Shown here: in pieces, positions 2,307 to 27,354 of the stretch
Layout of the letters: each line of letters opens with the position of its first letter
Position numbering within the stretch: the stretch's first letter is position 1
Source of the DNA: Gemmatimonadales bacterium
GTDB lineage: Bacteria > Gemmatimonadota > Gemmatimonadetes > Gemmatimonadales > GWC2-71-9
NCBI GenBank assembly: GCA_025937755.1
Contig: JAICQR010000010.1
Location: forward strand, 1-35,306
Direction: 5' to 3'
Length of the DNA stretch: 35,306 nucleotides
Position numbers and translations under genes: made by a program
The notes under the pieces: model-generated
What the model saw: only the letters and a program-made list of their open reading frames with translations
Told to the model about the DNA's origin: nothing
The model's database searches: none

Positions 2307-2380
2307 CGGGACGTAGCGCAGTCCGGTAGCGCACTGCAATGGGGTTGCAGGGGTCGCGGGTTCAAATCCCGCCGTCCCGA
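2307..2380 (+). tRNA. tRNA-Pro (anticodon GGG)
   Basis: Acceptor CGGGACG/CGTCCCG + A; anticodon arm CTGCA-ATGGGGT-TGCAG gives GGG; T-arm GCGGGTTCAAATCCCGC. Confidence 0.96.
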
Positions 2381-2416
2381 TCGATCGAGGAGCCGGCCGG
2401 CGTGCCGGCTCTTCGC

Positions 2417-2902
2417 ATGTCTGACTTGTACGCGGAGACACCCGTGCGCGTCGCCTTGCTTCTCGCTGTCACTCTCCTGCTGGCCGCCTGCTCGCTCGAT
2501 GACCTGCGCAGTCGCCCCCTCAATCCGCCAATCGCCAGGGAACTCGCCGTGAACGACGACGATCTGAACACCACCCCGTCGGGGCTTCGCTATCAGGACG
2601 TGACCGAGGGTGACGGAGCCGAGGCACGCGCCGGCGACTCCGTGTCGGTGCACTACACCGGCTGGCTCACCGATGGTTCCAAGTTCGACAGCAGCCGCGA
2701 TCGCGGGACGCCATACACGTTCCAGCTTGGAGCAGGACGGGTCATCGCGGGCTGGGAGGAGGGTGTGGCCGGCATGAAGGTGGGCGGCCGTCGCAAGCTC
2801 GTCATCCCCGCGAATCTGGGCTACGGCGCCCGCGGAGCGCCGCCGGTCATCCCGCCAGGTGCCACTCTGGTGTTCGACGTGGAACTGCTGGCCATCAAAT
2901 AG
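2417..2902 (+). CDS. FKBP-type peptidyl-prolyl cis-trans isomerase, lipoprotein
   Basis: Lipobox LLLAAC near the N-terminus; FKBP core [61 protein letters not shown]. The start at 2417 is preferred because the ORF-track start at 2339 lies inside tRNA-Pro. Confidence 0.93.
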
Positions 2903-2907
2903 CCCTC

Positions 2908-2941
2908 CCCACTTCCCACTTCCCACTTCCCACTTCCCACT
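2908..2941 (+). repeat. Heptanucleotide tandem repeat (CCCACTT)~5
   Basis: Four full CCCACTT units plus CCCACT, immediately after the FKBP stop codon. Confidence 0.95.
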
Positions 2942-2967
2942 GGGGTGGGGAGGCCGGGGGGGTGGGG
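2942..2967 (+). other. G-run cluster, candidate G-quadruplex motif
   Basis: GGGG-T-GGGG-AGGCC-GGGGGGG-T-GGGG: four G-runs of at least 4 with short loops. Confidence 0.6.
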
Positions 2968-3079
2968 TGACGCCCCTCACAGCACCCACCCCCTCCATTC
3001 GGCATGTTCGGGCACGTGCGTGACGCCATCCGTCCAAGTCGGATGGGCGCCTGACTTCCGATGGTACCGAGGAGGATGT

Positions 3080-3736
3080 ATGCGGACGATGCCGCGTGGT
3101 GCGATGCTGGGAGCACTGACGCTTGTGATCGGGCTGGGTGCGTGTGCACCCAAGGTGACTCGTGAGGAGTTCCAGAGCGAGGTCACGAAGATCCGCGACG
3201 AGATGACAACGGGTGATCGCCAGCTGGCCACTCGCATCGACTCGCTCAACACTCGCATGTCCACGCTCGAGAGCGATCTCGCGGCGTTCCGGAGCGAGTA
3301 CAACGTAAGCCTGGAAGAGATGCAGGGCGCGCTGAAATTCAACGTTCCGGTGCATTTTGAGTTTGCCAGCGCAGAGCTGCGCGAGGCCGACCGCCCGGTG
3401 CTTGACCGGTTCGCGGGTGTGGTGCGGGAGCACTACCCCAACGCCGTGATTACGATCGAGGGTTTCGCGGATCCGGCAGGTTCGCGCGCTTTCAACAAGC
3501 GGCTGGGTATGGATCGCGCCGAAAGCGTGGTGAGCTATCTCAGTTCCAATGGCGCGCTGACCGGCGCCAGCCTCAAGGCCGTGAGCTACGGCGAGTCCAA
3601 CGACCGCCAGGTAGTGCCTGGTGCTCAGGGCCCTGGCCCGGAGGGCATGGAGAATCGGCGGGTTGCGCTGGTGATTGATTATGCCTCGCCCGACGCCGCG
3701 CCCATGACCGAGACCGAAGGCGTTTCGCTGCGCTAG
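3080..3736 (+). CDS. OmpA-family (peptidoglycan-associated) lipoprotein with coiled-coil linker
   Basis: Signal/lipobox VIGLGAC; heptad-like region; OmpA C-terminal domain (VHFEFASAELREADRPVLDRFAGVV...ITIEGFADPAGSRAFNKRLGMDRAESVVSYL). Start at 3080 follows AGGAGG. Confidence 0.9.
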   Translation: MRTMPRGAMLGALTLVIGLGACAPKVTREEFQSEVTKIRDEMTTGDRQLATRIDSLNTRMSTLESDLAAFRSEYNVSLEEMQGALKFNVPVHFEFASAELREADRPVLDRFAGVVREHYPNAVITIEGFADPAGSRAFNKRLGMDRAESVVSYLSSNGALTGASLKAVSYGESNDRQVVPGAQGPGPEGMENRRVALVIDYASPDAAPMTETEGVSLR

Positions 3737-4428: not shown

Positions 4429-4929
4429 ATGCGCACCACCCTTTCGATCGCGCTGGCACTCGTGGTAGCCGGCTCGCTGGCCTCGCCGGCTCAGGCGCAG
4501 AACAGCGGTAACATCTTCGCCACCGCCACCGTGCTGAGCTCGATCTCGGTGACCGGCAACAACCTCGACTTCGGCAACGTCGCCCAGGGTCAGATCAAGA
4601 CTGTGGCGCCGGACGCCGCGGGCGCCGGCAACTTCACGGTGCTCGGCCAGTCGGCCACCCCGGTGGTGCTGTCGGTCACCTCGCTGCCGGCCGACGTCAA
4701 TCATGCGGGCCTGCCGCTCTCGGCCTGGCAGTACATGCATGCCGACGTCAATTCGACCGGTGGCCTGAGCGCCGCGGCCGTCGCCGTCGGCAGCACCTTC
4801 ACCGGCACCCTCGACGCCAGCGGCAACTACTACGTCTGGGTAGGCGCGACGCTGTCCGCCGGCGCCGCAGTGCCGGCCGGTTCGTACACCAGCACCACGC
4901 CGATCACCCTCCAGGTGGTCTACCAGTAA
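4429..4929 (+). CDS. DUF4402 / spore-coat-U-like secreted pilus-type subunit (paralog 1)
   Basis: Signal peptide ending SPAQAQ; ISVTGNNLDFGNVAQG, GNFTVLGQSATPVVLSVTSLP, YYVWVGATLSAGAAVPAGSYTSTTPITLQVVYQ; same layout as the next two genes. Confidence 0.78.
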   Translation: MRTTLSIALALVVAGSLASPAQAQNSGNIFATATVLSSISVTGNNLDFGNVAQGQIKTVAPDAAGAGNFTVLGQSATPVVLSVTSLPADVNHAGLPLSAWQYMHADVNSTGGLSAAAVAVGSTFTGTLDASGNYYVWVGATLSAGAAVPAGSYTSTTPITLQVVYQ

Positions 4930-4994
4930 GCCTCGACGATCGGGTAGCCGGAGGAGACGGCGAAAGCTGTCCCTCCGGCGCCAGTCCCCCTGAC

Positions 4995-5480
4995 ATGCTG
5001 CTTCGATCGCTCGCCGCGCTGACTATGCTCACTGCTGCTTCAGCCGGCAGCGCCGCCCACGCGCAGAGTTCCGGATCTGCTGTCGTCCAGCTGACCTTGC
5101 TCCCTTCGCTCACCGTCACCGGCACCCAGGATCTCGAGTTCGGCACGGTCGCCGGGTTCAGCTCGACCACGGTCCTCGCTCGCGATGGCGGCAGGTTCAC
5201 CATTCAGGGGCAGTCCAACGCCCCGGTGGTGATCGAGATGACCCAGTTGCCATCCAGCCTGGCGCCCAACCTCGCATTGGGCGCGTGGACCGGCCTCCAC
5301 AACCGTTCTCCCGGCCCTGGCAGCGCGACCGCCTTCGCGCCAGCTCCTGGCGCAGCGCTCTCCGCCGTGCTGCACAACAACGGGCGCTATTTCATCTGGC
5401 TGGGCGCCACCCTCACGGCCACCGGTGCGCCCCTGGGACCCCACAGCGCTCCCATCGTGATCACCGTCGGGTACAACTGA
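4995..5480 (+). CDS. DUF4402 / spore-coat-U-like secreted pilus-type subunit (paralog 2)
   Basis: Signal peptide; LTVTGTQDLEFGTVAGF, GRFTIQGQSNAPVVIEMTQLP, YFIWLGATLTATGAPLGPHSAPIVITVGYN; aligns by eye with 4429..4929. Confidence 0.78.
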   Translation: MLLRSLAALTMLTAASAGSAAHAQSSGSAVVQLTLLPSLTVTGTQDLEFGTVAGFSSTTVLARDGGRFTIQGQSNAPVVIEMTQLPSSLAPNLALGAWTGLHNRSPGPGSATAFAPAPGAALSAVLHNNGRYFIWLGATLTATGAPLGPHSAPIVITVGYN

Positions 5481-5536
5481 CGTGCGTCGTCACGTACATT
5501 GCTGGCGTTCCCAGTCCATTGTTGATCCGGAGCTTC

Positions 5537-6016
5537 ATGCGAACCGCACCACCGCTGCTCGCGTTGGGTTGCCTGTGCCTGCTGGCGAGCCCCGCTTCTG
5601 CCCAGGGCCATGGCGGTCGGCCGATCCGGGTGCTTGGCGTCCGGGCACTCACGTTCGGGAGTCTCATCGCGGGCGCGCCGTCGTCCGTGCTGCGCACCGA
5701 TCCTGCCCGCGCGGGCCAGTTCGATCTGATGGCCCAGAACCGTGAGGTGGTGCTGGTGAGCTTCTCACTGCCGTCGGCCATGTCCGGCCCGGCTGGCGCA
5801 TCGCTGCCCGTGATGTTCTCCGGCACCGACGCCGGATTCTCACAGGAGCAGACCATCGGCGACCAGGTGGCATTCGACCCCCGCACTACCTACACCGGCA
5901 CCATGTCGAGGCAGGGCAGGGCGTCGATTTTCCTGGGCGGCACCGCGATGCCGGCCTTCAATCAGCCGCCGGGTAACTACTCCGGCACGGTCACCCTGAC
6001 GATTGCCTACCCGTGA
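5537..6016 (+). CDS. DUF4402-like secreted subunit (paralog 3, divergent)
   Basis: MRTAPPLLALGCLCLLASPASAQ signal peptide; VRALTFGSLIAG, GQFDLMAQNREVVLVSFSLP, ASIFLGGTAMPAFNQPPGNYSGTVTLTIAYP; stop overlaps the GTG start of the next gene. Confidence 0.7.
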   Translation: MRTAPPLLALGCLCLLASPASAQGHGGRPIRVLGVRALTFGSLIAGAPSSVLRTDPARAGQFDLMAQNREVVLVSFSLPSAMSGPAGASLPVMFSGTDAGFSQEQTIGDQVAFDPRTTYTGTMSRQGRASIFLGGTAMPAFNQPPGNYSGTVTLTIAYP

Positions 6017-6843
6017 AGAGCCTCTCCATCGCGCTGCCGCTCATCCTGGCTGGCATCTCCGCGCTTCAGGCACAGGGAGTCCTGGTCGCGCCTACCTCGA
6101 TCTTCATCGATGGGCGCGCTCGCTCCGCCACTGTCCTGCTGGTCAATCCCAACGACGATCCTGCCGAGGTCGAACTCTCGGTTACCTACGGCTACACCGT
6201 CACGGACAGCGCCGGCAGCTTCTCACTCTGGACAACCGATGCGCCAGACTCCACGGCGCCGTCGGCAGCGGCGTGGATCCGCGTCTTTCCTCGTCGGGTC
6301 GCCATCGAGCCGAGGGCGCAGCAACTGGTGCGATTACTGGTCTCGCCGCCCGCCGGCCTCGCCGACGGTGAATACTGGGCCCGGCTGGTGGTGCTCGCAC
6401 GCGGCGGGAAGCTCGCCGTCGAAGCCACGACCGACTCCGGCAGCGTGAACGTCGGGCTGGCGGTGGAGGTGCGCACCATACTTCCTGTGTTGTATCGCTC
6501 TGGCACCGTCCACCCTGGTGCAGCGCTCGAAGCTCTGGCCGCCGGCACCGTTGGCGACTCGCTCGCGATCCGCGCCCGCCTCAGCCGCACCGGCGATGCG
6601 GCTGCGCTCGGCACCGTCAAGGCAATGCTCCTGGATTCCACTGGCACCGTACTCCGCCGCTCCGAACTTCCGGTGTCGGTCTACGCTCCAATCGCCCCGC
6701 GTCTCGTGCTGCCAGTCGATTCGCTCCCGCCCGGCCGCTACTCCGTGCAAATGGAATTCGTGGCGGAGCGCCCTGATCTTCCGCCTGAGGCCCTGTTGCG
6801 GTTCACTGCTGTGCGCGATTCGCTCGCCGTTACGCTGCCCTGA
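6013..6843 (+). CDS. Divergent periplasmic pilus-assembly chaperone-like protein (PapD-like fold predicted)
   Basis: Signal peptide; SIFIDGRARSATVLLVNPNDDPAEVELSV; IRVFPRRVAIEPRAQQLVRLLVSPPAGLADGEYWARLVV; VEVRTILPVLYRSG. Located between subunits and usher; GTGA overlap with the upstream gene. Confidence 0.68.
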   Translation: MKSLSIALPLILAGISALQAQGVLVAPTSIFIDGRARSATVLLVNPNDDPAEVELSVTYGYTVTDSAGSFSLWTTDAPDSTAPSAAAWIRVFPRRVAIEPRAQQLVRLLVSPPAGLADGEYWARLVVLARGGKLAVEATTDSGSVNVGLAVEVRTILPVLYRSGTVHPGAALEALAAGTVGDSLAIRARLSRTGDAAALGTVKAMLLDSTGTVLRRSELPVSVYAPIAPRLVLPVDSLPPGRYSVQMEFVAERPDLPPEALLRFTAVRDSLAVTLP

Positions 6844-6845
6844 CC

Positions 6846-9404
6846 ATGCACTGGCCGGCGGCGCGGGCGCACGTCGCACGCTTGGCCGTCGTACTGGCCG
6901 CCGCAGGCAGTTCGGCGGCGGTGCCGCTCCACGCACAACAGTTGCCCGAGCCCGCCATTGTCCAGCTCCAGATCGGGCGCCTCGCCGCCCGTACGGTGCC
7001 GGCGTATCGGATCGGCAGCGAAGCGCTCGTTCCTCTCGGGCAGTTCTTCGACCTCGCCGAGGTGAGGATCGTACGGTCGGCCGCTGGGTTTCTCGCCGCC
7101 CAGCTGCCTCAGGGCACCGGGATCGAGGTCGATGCGCACGCACGCCAGGCCAGGGCCGGCAACCGCACGGTTGCGCTCGACAGCGCCACGCTGGTTGTGG
7201 AGGGTGCCGAGCTGTACCTCGCCACTGCTGTGCTGGGCCGGCTGCTGGATGTCGAGTTCAAGGCCGACTGGGGCAACCTCGAGGTGCTGGTGCGCAACCC
7301 GGATCGGCTGCCCGTGGCAGACCGGCTCCGGCGTGAAGCGGCCCACACAGCCCTGTTACGGGGTGGTGCGGCCATCGCACCCGATGTCTTCATTCCGCCG
7401 GACCGTTCTCGCCTGGGCGGCTTCGTGCTGGACTACAGCTTCTTCTCGCCCAGTACCGATCCGATCGAAGGAAGTTCCTATACCCTGAACGCCGGTTTCG
7501 ATCTGCTTGGTGGATCACTCGAGCTGGGCGCGCGGAGCGACGACCCCGCCTCAACTGGTGATGTGAGGCTGGACGCCTCCTGGCTCGGCGTCTGGCGCCG
7601 CAATGCGTACCTGCGGCAGCTCCGGCTGGGCGACGGGCTGGGCACCGGTCCCCGTGCCCGCACCATCCGCGGCGGCAGTGTCACCAACGCCCCCTACGTG
7701 CGGCCATCGCTCCAGGCCGACGTGGTGTATGCCGGACGGTTACCTGAAGGCTGGGAAGTCGAAGCCTGGCGCAACGGCATGCTGCTCGGCATCGACTCCA
7801 CCGGCATCGATGGTGGGTTCGGGATCTCACTCCCGGTGGTGTATGGCGAGAATCCGGTGGATTTCATCGCCTACGGCCCCTTCGGCGAACGGCGCGAGTT
7901 CAGCCGGAAGTATCTGGTGCCGCTCGCGCTTCTGCCTGCGCGCCAGGTGGAGTACGCCGTGGCAGCGGGCGAGTGTCGGCTCGATCCCTGTGAGTCGACC
8001 CTCAATGCCGATCTTCGCTATGGCATCTCGGAGCGCTGGACCTTGGCTGCCGGTGTCGATCGGTTCTGGCGTGACTCCCTGTCCGACCGGACCCATCCCT
8101 ACCTCGACGCCGTCGGCATTCTCGGAAATGCCTGGACCGCCGAGGCGGGCGCCGTCGCCAGCGGATTTGTGCGCGGCCGGCTTGGGTATGAGCCAACGCT
8201 CGACCTGAGACTGAGCGCGGAGGTGGTCCGCTTCGCCCGTACACCCGACAACCAGTTGCTCAATCCGCTCGCGCGCCAGGAGCAGGTGCAGCTGGGCGCG
8301 TTCTGGCGGCCCGACCGGAGGCGGGGGTTTCTCTTTGTGGAAGGCAGGCTGGAGCATGCAACCACCGCAGCGGGCTCGAGCTGGCGCGGCCGGGCGGGGC
8401 TCTCCGCCCAGTTGGGACGGGTGCGTGCCGCCCCCTATGCCCGCTTCGAGCGTCAGCAGGAAGCGGGAGGAAGCGTCACCCGGGGCTTCGGCGGAATCGA
8501 ACTCTTCGCCACCCCGGGTTCCGGGCTCGGCGGCGTACTACGCCATTTGTGGCTCCGCGGCGCCTATGAGGGCCGCAATCTCGTCACGCCCGAGTTCGCG
8601 TCACTCACCGTTGCGCGGCCGCTGGGCGCCGGTATCCGGGCCGAAGCCGGAGCGCTCTGGCTCAAGGGCAGTAGCCGGCCCACGTGGACCTTCTCTCTCG
8701 CCACCTCGCTCTCTACCCTGCGCGCATTGACCCTCGTGACGGCGCCGGCGGCCGGTCCCGCCGCAGCGACCCATTACCTGCAGGGCTCGGTGCTCTACGA
8801 TCGCGCCCGCGGTGGCCTGGCCTTCACCGCGGGGCCGTCGTTGCAGCGCGGCGGCATTGCCGGGCGGGTCTTCCTGGACGAGAACGGCAATGGTGTGCGC
8901 GATGACACCGAGCCCGGGCTCCCCAATGTGCGGGTCCAGGTCGGCGTTGCCGCGGCCTACTCTGATTCGCTCGGCTGGTATCGGGTGCTGGATGTGGTGC
9001 CATTCGAGAGCGTGCTCGTGCGGGCGGACTCGCTCAGTTTTGACTCACCGCTGTGGGTGGCGGAGTTCGGACTGGCGGCCGCGGTGCCGGCGCCCAACAG
9101 GCTCACCGTGGTGGACGTCCCGTTGCTCATGGGTGCGGTGCTGGAAGGCTCGGTGAGGTTCGCGGATGGTTCGCCCGCCGCCGGCGTGTCACTGGAACTC
9201 ACCAATGGTGAAAGGCGCCTCACCAGCTCCACCTTCACCGATGGCACCTTCTACCTGATGGGGGTGACCGAGGGCCGCTGGAGGGTCAGCGTCGCCCCCC
9301 GCAGCGCCGACGCCCTCAGCGCCGACGCCGTGCCCGTCATCATCGCTGTGCCCCCCGGCGGTGGCGCGCTGCCGATGGTGCAGCTCAACCTGGTCCCGCG
9401 CTAG
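6846..9404 (+). CDS. Usher-like outer-membrane beta-barrel protein with C-terminal SdrD_B / carboxypeptidase-regulatory-like domains
   Basis: LRLGDGLGTGPRARTIRGGSVTNAPYVRPSLQADVVYAGRLPEGWEVEAWRNGMLLGI...FGISLPVVYGENPVDFIAYGPFGE...LVPLALLPARQVEYAVAAGECR resembles the usher plug/barrel region; GIAGRVFLDENGNGVRDDTEPGLPNVRVQV at the C-terminus. Confidence 0.72.
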   Translation: MHWPAARAHVARLAVVLAAAGSSAAVPLHAQQLPEPAIVQLQIGRLAARTVPAYRIGSEALVPLGQFFDLAEVRIVRSAAGFLAAQLPQGTGIEVDAHARQARAGNRTVALDSATLVVEGAELYLATAVLGRLLDVEFKADWGNLEVLVRNPDRLPVADRLRREAAHTALLRGGAAIAPDVFIPPDRSRLGGFVLDYSFFSPSTDPIEGSSYTLNAGFDLLGGSLELGARSDDPASTGDVRLDASWLGVWRRNAYLRQLRLGDGLGTGPRARTIRGGSVTNAPYVRPSLQADVVYAGRLPEGWEVEAWRNGMLLGIDSTGIDGGFGISLPVVYGENPVDFIAYGPFGERREFSRKYLVPLALLPARQVEYAVAAGECRLDPCESTLNADLRYGISERWTLAAGVDRFWRDSLSDRTHPYLDAVGILGNAWTAEAGAVASGFVRGRLGYEPTLDLRLSAEVVRFARTPDNQLLNPLARQEQVQLGAFWRPDRRRGFLFVEGRLEHATTAAGSSWRGRAGLSAQLGRVRAAPYARFERQQEAGGSVTRGFGGIELFATPGSGLGGVLRHLWLRGAYEGRNLVTPEFASLTVARPLGAGIRAEAGALWLKGSSRPTWTFSLATSLSTLRALTLVTAPAAGPAAATHYLQGSVLYDRARGGLAFTAGPSLQRGGIAGRVFLDENGNGVRDDTEPGLPNVRVQVGVAAAYSDSLGWYRVLDVVPFESVLVRADSLSFDSPLWVAEFGLAAAVPAPNRLTVVDVPLLMGAVLEGSVRFADGSPAAGVSLELTNGERRLTSSTFTDGTFYLMGVTEGRWRVSVAPRSADALSADAVPVIIAVPPGGGALPMVQLNLVPR

Positions 9405-9469: not shown

Positions 9470-12067
9470 CTACGGCGCCAGCCAGTACGTCGCCTTCACT
9501 GCAAGAAAATTGCTCCCCGGTGCGCTGAAGCTGTCGAACAGCGCCCCGACGCTCGCCTTGCCCAGCGTTGGCACGCTCCCGCTCCGGTCCTGCTGCCACA
9601 CCAGGAACAAGGTGCTGCCCGGCAGCCACTCCCACCGCATCACCAGGTTGCTCCGGAACGACAGCACGTTGAAGTCCGGATTCGGCAGGTTGAACGTCTG
9701 CCCATCGGCAGTTACTTCGTAACCGTCATCCACCGGCACGATCGTGGTGCCGTCCTCGCCGTACTCCCGCAACTCGCGGCTCCGGGCCGCTTCCAGCTCG
9801 CCGAAGCGATGGAACTCACCGCTCGCGGTGAACGGTTCGGCATACAGCTCGAGCGTCAGGTCCGGCGTGAAGGCGTACTCCAGCCGCATCTGCGCCGAGA
9901 GCGTCGTGCGGTCCGCGAACGCGAAGACGTAGCGGGTGCCGAACGTCGCTGCCCGTCCGTCGGGCCGGGTGGTGAGGAACTGGCGCGATACCCGTTCGCG
10001 CTGGAACGTCGGGGTCACGCTCACCCGCCAGCGGGGTGCCGGACGGGCCGCCACGTTGCCCCGGAGCGAGACCCGCCGTCCGCCCGCCTCATCCACCTGG
10101 ACATTGACCGACCCGGACCAGTTGACGGTGTTGCCCTCGTTGCCTGACAACTCGACATCGAAGCCCTGGAGGTAGCTGGTACCCATCAGGGGACCGCCCC
10201 GCGTCAGGTCGTCGCTGGTAGCGCGGGGCTCGAGGTAGGTCCCGAGGAACAACCGCATGAAGTTGTGGAACGTGAAGTTGTTGGCCAGGGATGCGTACTG
10301 GTTGGTCATCACGCCGCCGAAGTTCCAGCCTCGCGTGTAATAGAGCGTGTGCGAGCGGCGCCGGAACGGCCCGCGCGGCTGGGTTTCCCGCCAGGTGAGG
10401 TCGCCATAGGAACTGACGTCGTTGGCGCTGCCCAGTCGGCCCGCGTCGTTGATGTCAAACAGGGGCGACTCCGCATTGGCGCCCGCCTCCCAGACCCAGT
10501 GTCGGCCCGAGTTCTTCTCGGCGCTGACTCCGGCCGCCCAGCCGGCCATCGACGTTCGGGTGGGGTCGTAGGTGAACTCGGTCGCGTCTGGCCGTTGCAG
10601 GAAATGCGCAGGATGACGCTGCAGCAGCGCCATCGCCTCCGGCTCACCGGATACATGGCTGAAGCCCGCAAAGGCATCGAACTCGTACGTGTTCTGCGCC
10701 GTCCGCAGATTGAGGTCGGCGCCGCCCGCGATGGCGGTGCGGGGGAGCAGCGCCGCCAGCGGGCTACCCACCCCGATGTCCCGGCGCACCGCGGTGAAGG
10801 ATGCTCCCACCGTGGACGCATTGGCCCCGAATTCCTGCTGCAGCCGGCCCACGCCATAGCCGGTGAGCGGTTCCACCTCCACCGACGTGCGCTCGCCCGA
10901 CGCCACATCAAACGCGGTGGCGTGCTCCCGTCCCGTCACTGCGGTCAGGGCGCCGACACTCAACCCATGGCTGAGCCGGCCGGTGACCTTGGCGGCGCCC
11001 AGGATGGTCGTGTTCAGCGGCTGGTCGACGAAGTCGCCCTCGGCGCCGCCCCTCGGCGCCCGGCCGATCCGGCGGGAGTAGAAGAAGTTCTGGCCCCCGC
11101 CGCGCAGCAGGTCGCTGCCTTCGGTGAAGAATGGCCGACGCTCGTCGAAGAAGGTCTCGAACCCGCTGAGATTCACCTCGGCCGGGTCCGCTTCCACCTG
11201 CCCGAAGTCGGGGTTCACGGTCGCATCCAGGGTCAGGTTGGTGCCCAGCCCCAGCTTGAAGTCGGCGCCGGCCCGCACGCCATACCGGCTGCCGTCGTCG
11301 AAAGGATTCCCGGCAGCTGCGTCGGCATAGGTGGCGTTGGCAGCGACGTACGGCATGACCTCCAGCCGGCTCGACGGCCGGATGCCCTGGATACCCTGCA
11401 ACAGCCCGAACCGCGACGACCACCCCGATTCGCGCGCCGGGATCACCACCCAGTACACGTCCTCGTCTGCCGCCGGCATCCACCGGTTGATCTGCACGCC
11501 CCATTCCTGCACCGGGCGGTCAGTGAAGCGAAGCTGCGAAAAGGGAATCCTCATCTCGGCGTACCAGCCGGTGGAGTCATGCGATACCCGGCCTTCCCAG
11601 ACCGGATTCCAGGCCAGCTCGCGGGAGCCTTCGGCGTCATTGGGGTGAAAGAAGTCGCCCCGCACTCCGCCGCTCGAGAGCGAGAAGGTGTAGGCGGTCC
11701 GCCGGTCGTGATAGGTATCGAGCGCGACCAGGATGTGCTCGGCATTGCTGAACTGGTCCCGGCGGGTCACGATCGTCGGGATCTCGTGCGGATTGGCGCT
11801 GGACAGCCGGGCCCCTACATACAGCGCCTCGGTGTCGTACAGGAACGCCACCTGAGTTGGCGCCGATGGGGCGCCGCCCTCGGTTGGCACCTTCTGGAGG
11901 AAATCGGTGCGCCACTCCGCGTCCTGCCAGGCGGCATCAGTAAGGATGCCGTCGATGCTGGGCTGGCCACCCGCAGCAACCGGCGTCGCCTGGAATACCT
12001 TGGCGCCGGCCTCATCGCCCGCCTGCGCCATCAGGTTCGGAGCCACTGCCACAAGGAGCGCTGCCAT
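9470..12067 (-). CDS. DUF5916 outer-membrane barrel protein with N-terminal CBM9-like domain
   Basis: QPSIDGILTDAAWQDAEWRTDFLQKVPTEGGAPSAPTQVAFLYDTEALYVGARLSS plus VNPDFGQVEADPAEVNLSGFETFFDERRPFFTEGSDLL are hallmark DUF5916 motifs. The ORF-track start at 12157 is a TTG; ATG 12067 or GTG 12088 fits the signal peptide better. Confidence 0.88.
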   Translation of the reverse strand: MAALLVAVAPNLMAQAGDEAGAKVFQATPVAAGGQPSIDGILTDAAWQDAEWRTDFLQKVPTEGGAPSAPTQVAFLYDTEALYVGARLSSANPHEIPTIVTRRDQFSNAEHILVALDTYHDRRTAYTFSLSSGGVRGDFFHPNDAEGSRELAWNPVWEGRVSHDSTGWYAEMRIPFSQLRFTDRPVQEWGVQINRWMPAADEDVYWVVIPARESGWSSRFGLLQGIQGIRPSSRLEVMPYVAANATYADAAAGNPFDDGSRYGVRAGADFKLGLGTNLTLDATVNPDFGQVEADPAEVNLSGFETFFDERRPFFTEGSDLLRGGGQNFFYSRRIGRAPRGGAEGDFVDQPLNTTILGAAKVTGRLSHGLSVGALTAVTGREHATAFDVASGERTSVEVEPLTGYGVGRLQQEFGANASTVGASFTAVRRDIGVGSPLAALLPRTAIAGGADLNLRTAQNTYEFDAFAGFSHVSGEPEAMALLQRHPAHFLQRPDATEFTYDPTRTSMAGWAAGVSAEKNSGRHWVWEAGANAESPLFDINDAGRLGSANDVSSYGDLTWRETQPRGPFRRRSHTLYYTRGWNFGGVMTNQYASLANNFTFHNFMRLFLGTYLEPRATSDDLTRGGPLMGTSYLQGFDVELSGNEGNTVNWSGSVNVQVDEAGGRRVSLRGNVAARPAPRWRVSVTPTFQRERVSRQFLTTRPDGRAATFGTRYVFAFADRTTLSAQMRLEYAFTPDLTLELYAEPFTASGEFHRFGELEAARSRELREYGEDGTTIVPVDDGYEVTADGQTFNLPNPDFNVLSFRSNLVMRWEWLPGSTLFLVWQQDRSGSVPTLGKASVGALFDSFSAPGSNFLAVKATYWLAP

Positions 12068-12131
12068 CGTCAGGCAGAAGCGGAACACGCGGGGCCTCCG
12101 GCGCCGGGCGCCGTGGTCAAGTGAAACAGGA

Positions 12132-12162
12132 AGGGCTTGCAGAGTTTGACACCGCAAGCCCT
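12132..12162 (-). terminator. Stem-loop between DUF4097 gene and DUF5916 gene (possible terminator)
   Basis: 9-bp perfect inverted repeat AGGGCTTGC-13 nt-GCAAGCCCT; weak T-tract on the minus strand. Confidence 0.4.
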
Positions 12163-14598: not shown

Positions 14599-15180
14599 CT
14601 ACCGGTCGAGGTGCTGCCGCAGCGCCATGCGCGCGCGGTGCAACTGTGACTTCGATGTCCCGGCCACCGTTCCCATCATCTCCGCGATCTCCTCGTGCCG
14701 GTAGCCTTCCACGTCATGCAGCACGAAGACCTGTCGGGCCCCGTCGGGCAGCCGCTCGATTGCCGCCTCGAAGTCCAGCGTGTGCTCCACCGACACGTGC
14801 CGCTTCGCCGGCATCAACTCGAGCGGCCTGTCATCCGCGGTGTACCGCTCCCGCTGGATCCCCAGGGCTTTCCGCCGGCCCAGCAGCTCGTTGACGGCCA
14901 GCCGGTGGAGCCAGGTGCCGAACGCCGCCTCGCCCCGAAAGCTCCCCAGCTTCCGCCAGGCCCGGACAAACACATCCTGGGTGGCCTCGTCCGCTTCATC
15001 CCGCGAGAGCATCCGGCAGGCGAGCGCATGAATCCGGTTGACGTGCTTCCGGTACAGCCGCTCGAACGCGCTCTCGTCCCCGGCTACCGCCAGGGCAGCC
15101 TCCGTGATGTCGGAATCGGGGCGGGCCGGCCCGGCCGTGCTACTCACGGCGCGAACCCCGCGAATCGGGGTCGTTTGCAT
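14599..15180 (-). CDS. ECF RNA polymerase sigma factor
   Basis: Region 2 ([59 protein letters not shown]) and region 4 ([49 protein letters not shown]). ATG at 15180 preferred over the ORF-track start at 15201. Confidence 0.93.
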
Positions 15181-15191
15181 GCATGGGATTG

Positions 15192-15218
15192 GATACGACA
15201 AGCCTGCTCAAAGGTTGC
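15192..15218 (-). promoter_or_regulatory. Candidate ECF-type autoregulatory promoter
   Basis: Minus strand GCAACCTTT and CGTATC, 15 nt between GCAACC and CGTATC, ending about 11 nt before the sigma gene ATG. Confidence 0.4.
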
Positions 15219-15256
15219 AAGGCTTCCAGCCGTGCCGCCGAGCCGCCGAGACGACT

Positions 15257-15280
15257 AGCCGTCCAGCCGTCCAGCCGTCT
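15257..15280 (+). repeat. 8-bp tandem repeat (AGCCGTCC)x3
   Basis: AGCCGTCC AGCCGTCC AGCCGTCT just upstream of hutU. Confidence 0.85.
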
Positions 15281-15292
15281 AACTTGGCCTGC

Positions 15293-16944
<1,652 letters not shown>

Positions 16945-16948
<4 letters not shown>

Positions 16949-18171
16949 TTCTCCTCCGCAACATCGGCTTGCTCGTTACTTGCCGTCCCGATAGCGGCCA
17001 GAACAATCTGCATGCTATTCCGCACGCGTCCCTGGTATGGAGCGCGGGCAGGATCGTCTGGGCTGGTCCGGACGACCAGGTACCGGCCACGCTCGGCACA
17101 CTGGTCATGGAAGACGCCGGCGGGCGGATGGTCGTGCCCGGGCTGGTGGACTGCCATACTCATCTCGCCTTTGGTGGATGGCGGGCCGATGAGTTTGCCC
17201 GCCGGGTGCGGGGCGAGAGTTACGCCGAGATCGCCAGGAGCGGCGGGGGCATTCTCTCCACCGTGCGCGCCACCCGCGCGGCCGGCGAGGCGGTGCTGGC
17301 AGCCAGGGCGGACGAAATGCTGACCCGGATGATGGCCCTGGGCGTAACCACTGTCGAGGCGAAGAGTGGCTACGGCCTTACGGTGGCAGACGAGCTCATG
17401 CTGCTACGGGTGTACCAGCAACTCGCCGCGCGCGGGCCGGTCCGCGTGGTGCCGACCGTGCTGGGGGCCCACACTGTGCCGCCCGAGTTCGCCAGCGACA
17501 GGGCAGGGTACCTGCGCCTGCTCACCGAGGAGCTGCTGCCTCGGGTGGCGGCGATGGAATTGGCGCGCTATTGCGACGCCTTTGTGGAGCAGGGAGCGTT
17601 TACGGTGGAGGAGGCCCGCCAGGTGTTCCGGGCCGCGAGCAGCCTGGGCATGCGGGCCAAGCTGCACGCCGACCAGCTGACCTCATCGGGTGGCGCCGAG
17701 CTCGCCGCCGACGTGGGGGCCGTATCGGCCGATCATCTCGAGCATGTCTCCGATGCCGGCATTGCGGCCATGGCCGCCGCGGGTGTGGTCGCCGTCAGCC
17801 TGCCCATCGCGTCGCTCTATCTCCGCCAGCCGCCGCTGCCGGCCCGCAAGCTGCTCGACGCCGGCGTGCCCGTCGCCGTGGCCACCGACTTCAACCCCGG
17901 TTCCGCGCCAAGCTACCACCTGCCACTCGCCATGACCTTGGCTTGCACCACGCAGGGCATGACGCCCGCCGAGGCGCTCAAGGGTGCCACCATCGTCGCG
18001 GCCCGCGCCATTGGCGAGGAGGCAAACATCGGATCGCTTGAGGAAGGAAAGGCTGCGGACTTCGCCGTCATCGACGCGCCCGATGTTGATCACTGGCTGT
18101 ATCACTTCCGGCCCAATGCCTGCGTGCGCACCGTCATCGGCGGCCGCACCGTCTGGCGCGGCTCGGAGTGA
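16945..18171 (+). CDS. hutI: Imidazolonepropionase
   Basis: [104 protein letters not shown] overlap with hutU. Confidence 0.96.
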
Positions 18172-18228
18172 ACTGGGAGTCTCGAGTGTTCGTGCCCTTC
18201 GTCTCTTCGTGGTAAAATACCCTCCGGA

Positions 18229-19914
18229 CTACAGTTTGCCGTCGACCGCTGCGAGAAGCTCCGATTCCCGCAGGTCTGCCTCGGCCGCGAGCTTCGCGCC
18301 GTCGGCCAGCACCTGACTGACCAGCGACTTGTCCTTGAGCGTCGCCGCGTTGATCCGCACGTTGAGCCACGCTCCCCGCACCGCCGTCCGTGCACAGCAC
18401 GCCGCCACACCCGCATCCGACACCGAAGCCTGCAACCCTGACTCGGCCAACGCCTCAGCGATATCGAAGATTTCCATCGCCCGCTGCATCACCGCCCATG
18501 GGACGTTGATCGCCTCGACCGTGGCCGCGTCGATGGCGGCTCGCCGCGATACCTTCTGCTCGTCACTGTCCTTCGGCAGCTGCATTGCCGCCAGCACCTT
18601 GTCAAACGCGCGCGTATCGGCATCCACCAGCCGCAGCAGCTCGGCCTGAATGGCCTGGCCCCGTTCAGCCCACACCGAGAACTCCTCCCACCGCTCGTCC
18701 CAGCCGCGCTTGTGCGAGGAAAGATTGGCCACCATCGCCGCCAGGGCCGCGCCCATGGCGCCTACCGCCGCTGATACAGATCCGCCGCCGGGAGCGGGCG
18801 ACTCCGACGCCGTCTCCTCCACGAACCCTTCCAGCGTCATCTGCACCAGCCGCCGAGTGGCGGGATCGCGCAGCCGGTACTCGATGATTCTCTCCTCCGG
18901 CACAAATGGCCCGAGTTCTCCCAGCCCCAGGGTCCGCACCGCGATGTGAATCAGTTCGCGCTCGGCCACGCCGAGCGACCGGTGCTGCTTGCGCAGGTAG
19001 TGCCGCCCTGCGTCGAGCAGCGCCTTGAGCGGCACCAGGCCCACCAGTTCCGAACCGGTGACCCGCATGCCGCGCTCCCGCGCGGCGCGTTCCACTTCAT
19101 CGAACGCCACATGGACCGGCGTGACTCCCAGGTCGGTCAGGTTCATCGATACCTGGGCCACGCCGTACTCGTCGATGAACCAGCCGATCGCCTTGACCGC
19201 CTTGAGCGTGCCCGGCAGCGCCAGTGGCGCGCCGGTGTCATCGGTCAGCACCTTGCCGGTGAGGGCGTGCCCCTCCCGCCGGGGCCGGCCTGCCTCGCGC
19301 ACGTCAAATGCCACCGCATTGGCTCGGCGGGTAGACGTGGTGTTCAGGTTCACGTTGTAGGCCACCAGGAAGTCACGCGCACCGATGACCGTGGCGCCGC
19401 TCTTCGGATTGAACGTGGCCGGCCCGTAGTCGGGCTTCCACCTGGGCAGGCGAAGCTTCTGCTCCAGCGCTTCGTACTCGCCTTCGCGAATCACCGAGAG
19501 CGAGCGACGCGCGGCATCCGGCTGCGCGGCCTCGTAGAGATACGCGGCAATTCCCAGTTCGCGGCCTACTCGTTCGGCCAGGCCCCGCGCCAGCTCCGCC
19601 GCCTCTTCCATGGTGATGCCCGCAATCGGCACCAGCGGGCACACGTCGGTGGCCCCCATGCGTGGGTGCTCGCCCGAATGCTTGCGCATGTCGATCAGCG
19701 CCGCCGCCTCGGCAATGCCCCGGAAGGCGGACTCCACCACCGCCTCCGGCGCGCCTGCGACAGTGACCACCGTGCGGTTGGTGGCCTTGCCCGGGTCCAC
19801 ATGCAGCACCACCGCGCCGTCCACCGCGCCCATGGCATCGGCAATCCGGCGGATGATCTCCGGATCCCGCCCTTCGCTGAAATTCGGCACGCACTCGAGG
19901 ATACGCTCGGTCAT
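18229..19914 (-). CDS. ftcD: Fused glutamate formimidoyltransferase / formimidoyltetrahydrofolate cyclodeaminase
   Basis: N-terminal ILECVPNFSEGRDPEIIRRIADAM...HSGEHPRMGATDVCPLVPI (formiminotransferase); C-terminal SPAPGGGSVSAAVGAMGAALAAMVANLS (cyclodeaminase) in one 561-aa ORF. Confidence 0.94.
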   Translation of the reverse strand: MTERILECVPNFSEGRDPEIIRRIADAMGAVDGAVVLHVDPGKATNRTVVTVAGAPEAVVESAFRGIAEAAALIDMRKHSGEHPRMGATDVCPLVPIAGITMEEAAELARGLAERVGRELGIAAYLYEAAQPDAARRSLSVIREGEYEALEQKLRLPRWKPDYGPATFNPKSGATVIGARDFLVAYNVNLNTTSTRRANAVAFDVREAGRPRREGHALTGKVLTDDTGAPLALPGTLKAVKAIGWFIDEYGVAQVSMNLTDLGVTPVHVAFDEVERAARERGMRVTGSELVGLVPLKALLDAGRHYLRKQHRSLGVAERELIHIAVRTLGLGELGPFVPEERIIEYRLRDPATRRLVQMTLEGFVEETASESPAPGGGSVSAAVGAMGAALAAMVANLSSHKRGWDERWEEFSVWAERGQAIQAELLRLVDADTRAFDKVLAAMQLPKDSDEQKVSRRAAIDAATVEAINVPWAVMQRAMEIFDIAEALAESGLQASVSDAGVAACCARTAVRGAWLNVRINAATLKDKSLVSQVLADGAKLAAEADLRESELLAAVDGKL

Positions 19915-19962: not shown

Positions 19963-19990
19963 TCCACTTCCCACTTCCCACTTCCCACTA
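19963..19990 (+). repeat. Heptanucleotide tandem repeat (CCCACTT)~4
   Basis: TTCCACTT CCCACTT CCCACTT CCCACTA; final unit contains the aguA stop codon. Confidence 0.9.
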
Positions 19991-20998
19991 GGCCGGCCAC
20001 TGCTGCGTCACACAGTGAAAGGCACCCAGACCCCAGACCAGGTCGGTGCAGTCGATCCCGATGACTTCACGGTCGGGAAACACGTGCTGCAGCGTCGCCA
20101 GCGCCTGCGGGTCGCGCTCGGGATCATAGGTTGGCACCAGCACGATGCCATTGGCGATGTAGAAGTTGGCGTAACTGGCAGGCAGCCGCTGGCCATCATG
20201 CTCCAGCCGGCGGGGCATCGGTATCGTCACCACGTGGAAGGGCTGGCCGTCCTGGTCTCGCATCTCGCGCAGCCGGGAAAGATTGGCCTTGAGCGGCTCG
20301 TGATTGACGTCGGCTGGATCGTCCTCGACCACCGTCACGATGGTGCGTTCGTTCACGAACCGGGTGATGTCGTCGATGTGCCCATCAGTGTCATCTCCCT
20401 CGATGCCGTCTCCCAACCACAAAATGTTGCTGACGCCCAGATAGTCGCGCAGATACTCCTCAATCTGTGTCTGCGTCAGCTGTGGATTGCGGTTGGGGTT
20501 GAGCAGGCAGGAGGTGGTGGTGAGCAGGCTGCCGAGACCGTTGACGTCGAGCGAGCCGCCTTCCATCACGATGCCGGGATGAAACACCGGGATGTCGAAC
20601 GCCGCACCCACGAGCGTGGGGATCACGTCGTCGAGGTCATAGGGCGGATACTTGTCGCCCCAGGCATTGAAGCCCCAGTCGATGATGGCCTGCTCGGTCT
20701 GTCCGTTGGCCCGTCGCTGCACGAAGATGGGGCCGTGGTCCCGGCACCACGCGTCGTTGGTGGGATGGTGGTGGAAATGCACTCCGCGGAGCGCCACCCT
20801 TTCCGACGCCAGGAAGCTGCGGACCGACGCCTCCATCTCGGTGTCGGTCACGTTGATGTGGACCTCCTCGCGGGGTGCGAGGTGCCGCACCATCGCGGCA
20901 AAGATGAACGGCACCGGCTCGAACTTGCCGGGCCACGACTCGAGCTTGTGGGGCCAGCTGAGCCAGGTGCCGCGGTGCGGCGCCCACTCGGCGGGCAT
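19988..20998 (-). CDS. aguA: Agmatine deiminase
   Basis: MPAEWAPHRGTWLSWPHKLESWPGKFEPVP; DAWCRDHGPIFV; MEGGSLDVNGLGSLLTTTSCLLNPNRNP; GHIDDITRFV; C-terminal FGLGAFHC-like VWGLGAFHCVTQQ. Start placed at 20998, not 21127, because the upstream stretch is repeat sequence. Confidence 0.95.
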   Translation of the reverse strand: MPAEWAPHRGTWLSWPHKLESWPGKFEPVPFIFAAMVRHLAPREEVHINVTDTEMEASVRSFLASERVALRGVHFHHHPTNDAWCRDHGPIFVQRRANGQTEQAIIDWGFNAWGDKYPPYDLDDVIPTLVGAAFDIPVFHPGIVMEGGSLDVNGLGSLLTTTSCLLNPNRNPQLTQTQIEEYLRDYLGVSNILWLGDGIEGDDTDGHIDDITRFVNERTIVTVVEDDPADVNHEPLKANLSRLREMRDQDGQPFHVVTIPMPRRLEHDGQRLPASYANFYIANGIVLVPTYDPERDPQALATLQHVFPDREVIGIDCTDLVWGLGAFHCVTQQWPA

Positions 20999-21029
20999 CG
21001 CATATCCCAGGGACGCAGGAGTGGTCGGC

Positions 21030-21064
21030 AAGTGGGAAGTGGGAAGTGAGAAGTGAGAAGTGAG
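21030..21064 (-). repeat. Heptanucleotide repeat in opposite orientation (AAGTGGG)2(AAGTGAG)3
   Basis: Read directly; reverse complement of the CCCACTT family; left arm of an inverted pair with 21111..21128. Confidence 0.92.
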
Positions 21065-21110
21065 AAGAGAACGAGAGTCGGGAAGTGCGAAGGGAGAGCT
21101 GGAACGGCAC

Positions 21111-21142
21111 CACTTCTCACTTCTCACTCGTCACTTGTCACT
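21111..21142 (+). repeat. Heptanucleotide repeat (CTCACTT-like), right arm of inverted pair
   Basis: CACTTCTCACTTCTCACT (21111..21128) is a perfect 18-bp reverse complement of 21045..21062; degenerate units continue (CGTCACTTGTCACTT). Confidence 0.88.
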
Positions 21143-22244: not shown

Positions 22245-24167
22245 TTATCCCAGTCTGATGCTGCCGGTACCCCGAGCGAGCGGCCACCTGAGCAGCACAG
22301 CGTCGCCCTGGCGGGTGCGCTCCATCCCGCGCTCGCTCTTCGACACCGTCTCCACCGCCGCGTTCCACACCTCCTCAGCGTCGTGCACCAGCGCGACCTC
22401 TCCGCTCAACGTCAACTCCACCGTGAACCACCCATCGCCCGAGGCGTCCCAACGATAACTCGCGCCGACGGCGCCTGCGGCCGACACCTGAATCTCCTTG
22501 GCGAGCGACGGCGTCCCCTCGGGTGACGTGAGCATCACGCTGACCTGCTCGCCGGTCTGTTTCACGTCGGCCGAGAATGCCACCGACGCCCAGCTGAACA
22601 CCGGCTGGTAGCTGGCCGCAGCCCACGCCTCGCGCGAGACATCATGGCTGAGAATGCGGTCCTGGAAGAGCGCCCGGTCGTTCAGGTCCACTGGCGGACG
22701 CTGCTCCAGCCGCAGCGCGTGCTCCAGCTCGTGAATGCTGGGCGCACCGCCATCCGCCGCGGAGTGCGCCGGCTCACTGTGCAGCGCCTCCTCGTGGTAC
22801 GCCTCCCAGCGGCGTGTCAGCACATCGAGCAGGTTCCGGCCCTCACTGAAGCGGGTCCACTCTTCCACCGCGCCGCCCCGGCTGGGCCCGATAATCACCG
22901 AGGCCTCCTCCGAGTGGATCCACAGTTCTTCGCGCCCGTCAAAATCGAAGTCCAGCTGCTCGATCTTCAGTGTTTCGCCGGCCCGCAGCAATCCCTCTGC
23001 AATTGCCAGCTCGCGCCAGAGCGCCGCCCGGAGGTGCGGCAGGTACAGCCCGCCGAACACCCCGTGCCAGTAGGCGTCATTGCACTGGGCCCGCGCGATG
23101 GCCTCGCGCACTGGCGCAGGGTTGCCGTGCCCGCGGCAGAGCAGGGAAAGCCATTGCGCCTTCTTGTGCAGCCGATTCGACTCCGAATATTTCGACAGGA
23201 AATTGCGCCAGTGCGACCCGCGAACCAGCACGCCGGCCTCGGATGCCATGCGGCCTTCGCCCAGTTCCTTCTCGATCGCTTGCAGCCGAAGCGCCGCCGC
23301 CGGCGGCGACGCCCAGCTTTCCATCTCGCGGTACGACGCCACCGGCAGGTAAGCCAGCCCCGCCGTCGGCACCGCATCCTTCGCTTCGCTGAACGTCGAG
23401 AGCGTGAGAATCCCATCCGACCGGAGCCGGTCGAGCTCGTCGGCGAATCGGTCCAGCCAGCCCCGGGTGTAGACCCAGTCGTAGGTGCCGGGCCACCCGC
23501 CGAACTTTTCACCGTCGTCCGCCAGCACGGCCAGCGGCGCTCCGCGGGCATGCAGTGACCGCACGTAGGCCCCGAATTCCTCGGTCGGGCGGAATGGTAC
23601 CAGGTAGCGCAGCCGCTCATCGATCGCGAACAGCGACAGCCGCCGGTGCCCGGACTCGGTTTCGTAGGGCGCGTGCAGCTGCTCGCGCTCGAACCCCGTG
23701 ATGAGGAAGTGCCGGTCGTCGAGGATCGCAAACTCCATCCCGGCATCCGCGATGTCGGCAGCCACGTCGGGCACCCAGACCCGCTCGGTGAGCCAGACCC
23801 CGCGCGGCTGTACCCCGAAGCGCCGCGCGATTTCCTCCCGCATGCGCACCACCTGCTCCACCCGGTCCTCGCGCAGCAGTGATGCGAGGATCGGTTCAGT
23901 CCAGCCTGCGCCCAGCAGCTCCATACGGCCGTCGGCCACAAGCCGCCCCAGCCGGTCGAGGTACTGCGGACAGTGGTGCTCCAGCCACTCGATCAGCGGT
24001 CCCGACACATGGAAGGTCACGGGAAAGAGCTCGCGCCGTTCCAGCAGGTCCAGCAGGGGGGCATACACCTGTTCCACATGCTGCTGCAGCACGTGGTCGA
24101 AGTTGCCCACCGGCTGGTGCAGGTGAAAACCGAAGAGAAATCGCGTGGGCGGCAGCGGCGCTGTCAC
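22245..24167 (-). CDS. GH57 4-alpha-glucanotransferase / alpha-amylase-type glycoside hydrolase (DUF1925/DUF1926-like C-terminus)
   Basis: FLFGFHLHQPVGNFDHVLQQHVEQVYAPLLDLLE; MELLGAGWTEPILASL; LADDGEKFGGWPGTYDWVYTRGWLDRF. Confidence 0.9.
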   Translation of the reverse strand: MTAPLPPTRFLFGFHLHQPVGNFDHVLQQHVEQVYAPLLDLLERRELFPVTFHVSGPLIEWLEHHCPQYLDRLGRLVADGRMELLGAGWTEPILASLLREDRVEQVVRMREEIARRFGVQPRGVWLTERVWVPDVAADIADAGMEFAILDDRHFLITGFEREQLHAPYETESGHRRLSLFAIDERLRYLVPFRPTEEFGAYVRSLHARGAPLAVLADDGEKFGGWPGTYDWVYTRGWLDRFADELDRLRSDGILTLSTFSEAKDAVPTAGLAYLPVASYREMESWASPPAAALRLQAIEKELGEGRMASEAGVLVRGSHWRNFLSKYSESNRLHKKAQWLSLLCRGHGNPAPVREAIARAQCNDAYWHGVFGGLYLPHLRAALWRELAIAEGLLRAGETLKIEQLDFDFDGREELWIHSEEASVIIGPSRGGAVEEWTRFSEGRNLLDVLTRRWEAYHEEALHSEPAHSAADGGAPSIHELEHALRLEQRPPVDLNDRALFQDRILSHDVSREAWAAASYQPVFSWASVAFSADVKQTGEQVSVMLTSPEGTPSLAKEIQVSAAGAVGASYRWDASGDGWFTVELTLSGEVALVHDAEEVWNAAVETVSKSERGMERTRQGDAVLLRWPLARGTGSIRLG

Positions 24168-27348: not shown

Positions 27349-27354
27349 CAGTCC

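Follow-up and report, generated by a model that had tools for sequence, protein, structure and literature searches.

Positions 4429-9404 of a Gemmatimonadales contig: a probable chaperone-usher pilus operon of a distinct DUF4402-type class

The five-gene locus and its features

The window analysed here is the whole of a 35,306-nucleotide stretch from a Gemmatimonadales bacterium (assembly GCA_025937755.1, contig JAICQR010000010.1). It is one entire contig (C57) of a 2.3 Mb genome that is 80% complete and whose relatives are Gemmatimonadota metagenome-assembled genomes. Positions 4429-9404 carry five genes, all on the + strand, for three small subunits (s1, s2 and s3), a PapD-like chaperone and an usher-like outer-membrane protein. 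With a probability of about 0.87, the set makes up the full operon for a chaperone-usher pilus, of a class that is distinct and unannotated and is called 'DUF4402-type' below. Fold, layout and motifs support its membership of the chaperone-usher systems.

The initial annotation, made from the sequence alone, had placed five tightly spaced + strand genes here. All of the open reading frames were recovered at these coordinates, and the motifs it had quoted were present and conserved in relatives. The gaps between s1, s2, s3, chaperone and usher are 65, 56, -4 and 2 bases, respectively; the GTG start of the chaperone overlaps the s3 stop as GTGA, and the start of s3 was taken as ATG 5537. All five products have a signal-peptide-like start ending in A|Q (cleavage sites were assigned by eye or script, not with SignalP). 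Scans for promoters and terminators found nothing that clearly exceeded chance, and an NCBIfam search of the five products gave nothing useful. The features are as follows.

4429..4929, + strand: s1, DUF4402 pilin-like subunit, 166 aa (PF14352 E 6.7e-6, above cut-off; family alignment)
4498..4536, + strand: s1 N-terminal extension, predicted donor strand (I-x-A-x-A-x-V pattern in 37 long subunits)
4995..5480, + strand: s2, DUF4402-like subunit, 161 aa (PF14352 E 0.15 alone; phmmer to relatives down to 1.9e-34)
5064..5102, + strand: s2 N-terminal extension, predicted donor strand (same length and pattern analysis as s1)
5537..6016, + strand: s3, DUF4402 subunit without N-terminal extension, 159 aa (PF14352 E 2.9e-6; short mature N-terminus)
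6013..6843, + strand: PapD-like periplasmic chaperone, 276 aa, two Ig-like domains (structure model, Foldseek, PapD_N in relatives)
6289..6291, + strand: chaperone Pro93, CsuC Pro59 column (40/40; joint alignment; PMC4654587)
6382..6384, + strand: chaperone Arg124, CsuC/EcpB Arg89 column (40/40; joint alignment; PMC4654587)
6682..6684, + strand: chaperone Tyr224, CsuC Tyr196 / EcpB Tyr169 column (38/40; joint alignment)
6846..9404, + strand: usher-like outer-membrane protein, 852 aa (structure model, Foldseek, profile-profile comparison)
6948..7292, + strand: usher N-terminal periplasmic domain, residues 35-149 (model secondary structure)
7413..7685, + strand: usher barrel strands 1-6, residues 190-280 (model secondary structure)
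7710..7919, + strand: usher plug, residues 289-358, between strands 6 and 7 (model; hhalign to archaic and classical plugs)
7947..8801, + strand: usher barrel strands 7-24, residues 368-652 (model; PapC description in PMC4356140)
8850..9110, + strand: usher C-terminal domain 1, residues 669-755, SdrD_B-like (Pfam, model, hhalign)
9117..9398, + strand: usher C-terminal domain 2, residues 758-851, CarboxypepD_reg-like (Pfam, model, profile comparison)

Usher, chaperone and subunits

The usher was modelled with AlphaFold 2 (AF2) on a 42-sequence alignment (pLDDT 88.6, pTM 0.71). The model runs from an N-terminal domain through 6 strands, a plug and 18 further strands to two C-terminal domains, a total of 24 strands. 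Strands 1-6 occupy residues 190-202, 211-220, 223-231, 240-249, 258-266 and 272-280, and a short helix lies at residues 467-470, between strands 13 and 14. PapC has been described as a 24-strand barrel with its plug in the loop joining strands 6 and 7 and with a helix separating strand 13 from strand 14 (PMC4356140), and the published usher architecture comprises five domains (PMC8410936). Foldseek against the PDB returned only FimD and PapC structures at ranks 1-17 (E 6.5e-30 to 1.2e-11); the first non-usher match came at 4e-8, and TonB-type and LptD barrels appeared only at ~1e-4. The barrel of roughly 24 strands with a plug that had been proposed from sequence was thus borne out in the model and its matches.

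Profile-profile comparison (hhalign) linked the usher to archaic (E 3.6e-17), classical (5.5e-9) and alternative (7e-7) ushers, and to proteobacterial DUF4402-type ushers at 1.3e-76. The alignments to known ushers cover the plug and the C-terminal domains, and the plug aligns with archaic and classical plugs. Pfam found CarboxypepD_reg and SdrD_B only, so standard annotation misses the usher. PF00577 had no match on the window usher and none above cut-off in the 61 related genomes or in 6 Fibrobacteres-Chlorobi-Bacteroidetes (FCB) genomes; because the fold and profile tests were positive, the shortfall lies with the Pfam model and not with the protein. A single-sequence PDB search with the usher gave nothing useful, and the A2 profile matched only SdrD/NOMO-like C-domains in the PDB; the usher is therefore missed by sequence search alone. 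Abrin matches in the single-sequence PDB searches of usher and chaperone (E 0.09-0.2) were set aside as chance.

The AF2 model of the chaperone (pLDDT 90.2) contains two Ig-like domains. Foldseek matched it to WxLIP, CupB2, EcpB, FimC, CfaA, Caf1M and CsuC (E 4e-10 to 1e-7), with the fimbrial chaperones among these at E 1e-9 to 1e-8, in agreement with the PapD-like protein of the initial annotation. PapD_N fell below the Pfam cut-off on the window chaperone and was found in 6 of 21 family chaperones (best E 1.5e-6). A single-sequence search of the PDB with the chaperone gave nothing useful. The locus had also been suspected of being too divergent for standard annotation, which the Pfam result for the usher bears out.

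In non-classical chaperones the carboxylate anchor consists of Arg89 (domain 1 (D1), strand F) and Tyr196 (domain 2), aided by Arg174, and one proline is invariant across the chaperone superfamily (PMC4654587). When the family was aligned jointly with archaic, alternative and classical chaperones, Pro93, Arg124 and Tyr224 fell in the proline, Arg89 and Tyr196 columns; the archaic columns of this joint alignment were taken from six plasmid-borne spore-coat-U (SCPU) operon chaperones and EcpB rather than from CsuC itself. Among 40 DUF4402-type chaperones, Pro93 and Arg124 were each conserved in 40 and Tyr224 in 38. The classical Arg/Lys carboxylate anchor positions in D1 were not conserved. Since the first three columns are kept and the classical pair is not, the chaperone looks, on sequence, like a non-classical type. 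Replacement of Arg89 by Trp122 was considered and dropped; the joint alignment puts Arg124 in the archaic/EcpB arginine column. Proteobacterial DUF4402-type chaperones (L103-L109) mostly have an EYRSH-like motif in place of EYWxR. In the alignment, the anchoring arginine of the proteobacterial branch appears to lie two residues earlier along strand F.

The top PDB structural matches of the chaperone model were Enterococcus WxL-interacting proteins (WxLIP; E 4e-10), above the fimbrial chaperones. The match hints at a fold common to Gram-positive and Gram-negative surface systems. It is a relation by fold only, and WxLIP differ in envelope type and have no usher.

The small proteins had been described as DUF4402/spore-coat-U-like. 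The first half of this description stood: s1 and s3 exceed the Pfam cut-off for DUF4402 (PF14352) and s2 matches weakly. The second did not, in that PF05229 is not their family; a control SCPU subunit scored E 2.5e-35 against PF05229, and the window subunits matched DUF4402 instead. The subunit profile is nevertheless related to that of the spore-coat-U pilins (E 2.5e-8, profile-profile). The three C-termini, ITLQVVYQ (s1), IVITVGYN (s2) and VTLTIAYP (s3), share a penultimate Tyr.

Mature s1 and s2 carry ~12 residues ahead of the core that s3 lacks. In s1, the signal peptide (residues 1-23) is followed by the extension NSGNIFATATVL; the extension of s2 is SGSAVVQLTLL. Across Gemmatimonadota operons the distance from the predicted cleavage site to LxFG was 22-25 residues in most subunits and 7-15 in one subunit per operon. 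Exactly one short subunit was found in 22 of 23 fully parsed operons. L071 was the sole operon parsed with two; this looks like a parsing error, because an earlier A|Q site there yields a long subunit. In L082 the short subunit follows the chaperone instead of preceding it, and there is still exactly one. In 37 long subunits the four alternating positions of I-x-A-x-A-x-V were 89-100% hydrophobic, with mostly polar residues between; an alternating hydrophobic pattern is a requirement for a donor strand (PMC12122975). An aromatic residue occurred within the last three positions in 32/37 long and 16/32 short subunits. On this pattern the extensions of s1 and s2 are predicted donor strands. Without an extension s3 could not complement another subunit and would have to be the tip, and it is accordingly the predicted tip, or first-assembled, subunit.

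Operon conservation and usher classes

Usher relatives were found in ~25 of the 61 related genomes (a few further matches were short C-domain stretches, E ~1e-4). For Gemmatimonadota the count was 60 of 295 genomes, and for Bacteroidota, the phylum of a Bacteroidales relative, it was 41 of 198. About a fifth of the sampled genomes of both phyla therefore carry the family. A genome scan added Melioribacter, Balneolaceae and Neomarinimicrobiota, and a plasmid search added Polaromonas, Pseudoalteromonas, Sphingopyxis and Novosphingobium. On these plasmids the subunits are annotated as 'DUF4402 domain-containing protein', the chaperones as 'molecular chaperone' or 'fimbria/pilus periplasmic chaperone' (hypothetical in Pseudoalteromonas), and the ushers as 'carboxypeptidase regulatory-like', 'SdrD B-like' or hypothetical, never as usher.

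On contigs of sufficient length the usher was nearly always accompanied by DUF4402-like subunits and a chaperone, arranged subunit(s)-chaperone-usher. Because dozens of genomes repeat this arrangement, the layout is not due to chance. Separate occurrence of the small proteins, which would have spoken against the proposal, was not seen: all 21 of the 61 related genomes with a DUF4402 match also had chaperone and usher matches. An apparent orphan DUF4402 gene (G024:C102) was discarded; it lies at a contig end, the chaperone of the same genome starts at the edge of another contig, and the case is probably a split operon. Many Gemmatimonadota operons (L032, L033, L036, L037, L046, L052, L056) have an extra subunit between chaperone and usher, usually with an N-terminal extension; the window has none. 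DUF4402-type operons also lie on conjugative plasmids of Polaromonas, Sphingopyxis and Novosphingobium (L103, L105, L107, L109), and that of L103 is flanked by two IS6 transposases. From the plasmid location and the IS6 pair, this pilus class may move horizontally.

Known chaperone-usher systems are described as three groups (PMC9452303). A maximum-likelihood tree was calculated from 35 ushers: classical K-12 FimD, HtrE and YehB; those of seven archaic SCPU operons; EcpC with four plasmid relatives; and 20 DUF4402-type ushers from six phyla. Four clades were obtained (classical, archaic, alternative and DUF4402-type), each with 100% bootstrap support, and the window usher falls outside the archaic, alternative (alpha) and classical clades. 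Archaic joins classical before DUF4402-type in the tree as rooted, although the root was drawn at the midpoint and the depth of the DUF4402-type branch is thus not proved. An early tree had EcpC, on a very long branch, next to the DUF4402 ushers. This placement was judged an artefact, because hhalign found no specific link between EcpC and DUF4402 ushers and EcpC moved to the alpha clade once four more alpha ushers were included.

The classical systems (FimC-FimD, PapD-PapC) share with the window the domain layout and fold of the usher, a two-Ig chaperone, and subunits with a penultimate Tyr and an N-terminal extension. They differ in the Arg/Lys anchor pair, which the window chaperone does not conserve, in a PapC-type strand 5-6 hairpin not seen in the window usher, and in phyla, and the window usher is too distant for PF00577. 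The alternative systems (alpha; Ecp/CFA-I, EcpB-EcpC) share the EcpB Arg89 and Tyr169 positions and have a weakly related usher (E 7e-7). Their ushers form a separate clade, and DUF4402-type systems have neither a CooC_C/TcfC-type domain match nor a large tip adhesin gene after the usher.

The closest comparison is with the archaic class (sigma; Csu pili CsuA/B, CsuC, CsuD and CsuE; SCPU plasmid operons L114-L120), to which the initial annotation had likened the locus. It is unlikely that the locus is simply a divergent member of that class. Archaic ushers are its best profile match among known classes (E 3.6e-17), the non-classical Arg and Tyr are common to both chaperones, the subunit profiles are related, and in both types the subunits precede chaperone and usher. 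Against this, the ushers form separate, fully supported clades, with archaic grouping with classical under the midpoint root, and the subunits are DUF4402 rather than SCPU (PF05229) proteins, so the likeness did not hold at the level of class. A larger SCPU gene follows the usher in 6/7 archaic operons (a short one in L119) and is missing from DUF4402 operons, where the predicted tip is instead a single-domain subunit without extension. The window chaperone is also longer (276 aa, against ~240 aa for the archaic ones used), Arg174 is replaced by Ala in the DUF4402-type chaperone, and the usher C-domains score as SdrD_B/CarboxypepD_reg.

Two further explanations depart from the chaperone-usher pathway altogether. 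The barrel might secrete DUF4402 proteins to serve as monomers or matrix proteins, with no donor-strand fibre being built. The literature search, with subscription papers and preprints outside its scope, documents no fibre for any DUF4402 system, as this explanation would have it; yet a PapD-like chaperone of its own, a five-domain usher layout and, on every subunit of an operon except one, a donor-strand-like extension make up the parts list of fibre assembly, and we regard it as quite improbable. That the large gene encodes an unrelated outer-membrane barrel, such as a TonB-type receptor, in a coincidental layout is hardly credible and already contradicted. Carboxypeptidase-regulatory domains do occur in TonB-dependent receptors too, and Pfam gives only CarboxypepD_reg and SdrD_B; the Foldseek E-values, however, place ushers far ahead of TonB-type and LptD barrels, hhalign to ushers spans plug and C-domains, and linkage to the chaperone is constant.

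Several observations weigh against a DUF4402-type pilus operon. On its own, s2 is only a weak DUF4402 match (E 0.15). The secondary anchor column of the chaperone (CsuC Arg174 / EcpB Arg148) holds Ala (residues 196-197) in most of the 40 proteins. In the usher, strands 5 and 6 are only five residues apart and the PapC-type hairpin there seems absent, barrel closure was judged from the strand counts of the model, and PF00577 matches 1 of 23 family members (E 0.0019). Foldseek TM-scores were moderate (best matches, 0.47 on the query and 0.50-0.59 on the ushers) with high rmsd, so the usher argument relies on the E-values and on the order of the strands. The genomes G045 (L050/L121) and G047 (L051/L122), both of one genus, have the usher and the DUF4402-chaperone pair on different contigs; this may be read either as a split operon or as a second, unlinked usher. 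The fibre itself, like the complexes and the expression of the operon, is read from genes and models, not from observation.

Published surveys place ushers in Proteobacteria, Spirochaetes, Cyanobacteria and Deinococcus-Thermus and list none for Gemmatimonadota or Bacteroidota (PMC4827864; PMC4654587). Within the scope given above, the literature search found no mention of DUF4402, and the titles and abstracts listed on chaperone-usher systems in Gemmatimonadetes, Sphingomonads and Bacteroidota/Bacteroidetes contained no description of a DUF4402-type family; because of that scope, priority is not certain. We consider it fairly likely that these systems are a fourth major, deep-branching chaperone-usher class, common in Gemmatimonadota and Bacteroidota and overlooked with its usher below curated models, in which DUF4402 is a pilin family and a single-domain tip can be recognised by its missing donor strand. 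The proposal of a non-canonical system outside well-studied lineages was upheld, with the refinement that the ushers form a fourth clade rather than an archaic one and that the family extends to Bacteroidota, other FCB phyla and Proteobacteria.

Proposed assembly and neighbouring genes

The conservation of the operon and its motifs, the folds and the family relations are computational results; from these parts we infer complex formation, an order of assembly, and a fibre with a role at the surface. The five products would reach the periplasm by the Sec route. There the two-domain chaperone would bind the C-terminal strand of each DUF4402 subunit, which ends in Tyr-x, anchor the subunit carboxylate in the inter-domain cleft of the chaperone through Arg124 and Tyr224, and lend a strand to the predicted incomplete Ig fold of the subunit. 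The usher N-terminal domain would collect chaperone-subunit complexes, the plugged 24-strand barrel would open, and the C-terminal domains would hold the growing base. Lacking an extension, s3 would be exported first as the tip; s1 and s2 would be added behind it by donor-strand exchange, the I-x-A-x-A-x-V extension entering the groove of the subunit ahead. The product would be a thin fibre on the cell surface, with attachment or biofilm as its most likely role.

On this reading, the DUF4402-type family would extend ushers to Gemmatimonadota, Bacteroidota, Ignavibacteriota, Balneolota and Neomarinimicrobiota, supply a likely function for DUF4402, a domain of unknown function, and explain a set of 'carboxypeptidase regulatory-like' barrel proteins as ushers. 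Its ushers are a possible outgroup for rooting the pathway. The prediction that the tip is the single subunit of each operon without an extension is made at the level of sequence and is directly testable.

Upstream on the same strand, at 2339-3736, are genes for an FKBP-type prolyl isomerase with a lipoprotein-like start and an OmpA-family protein, and a tRNA-Pro lies at 2307-2380. The convergent neighbour (9470-12157, - strand) encodes an 895 aa protein with DUF5916 (E 1.4e-70). Histidine degradation genes occupy 15038-19914 (urocanase, an imidazolonepropionase-like amidohydrolase and, on the opposite strand, formiminotransferase-cyclodeaminase), and after them comes a peptidyl-arginine deiminase-family gene (19988-21127, - strand). 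A glycogen cluster at 22245-29502 (- strand) encodes two GH57 enzymes, one of them branching-enzyme-like, a starch synthase-like transferase and a glycogen phosphorylase with DUF3417.

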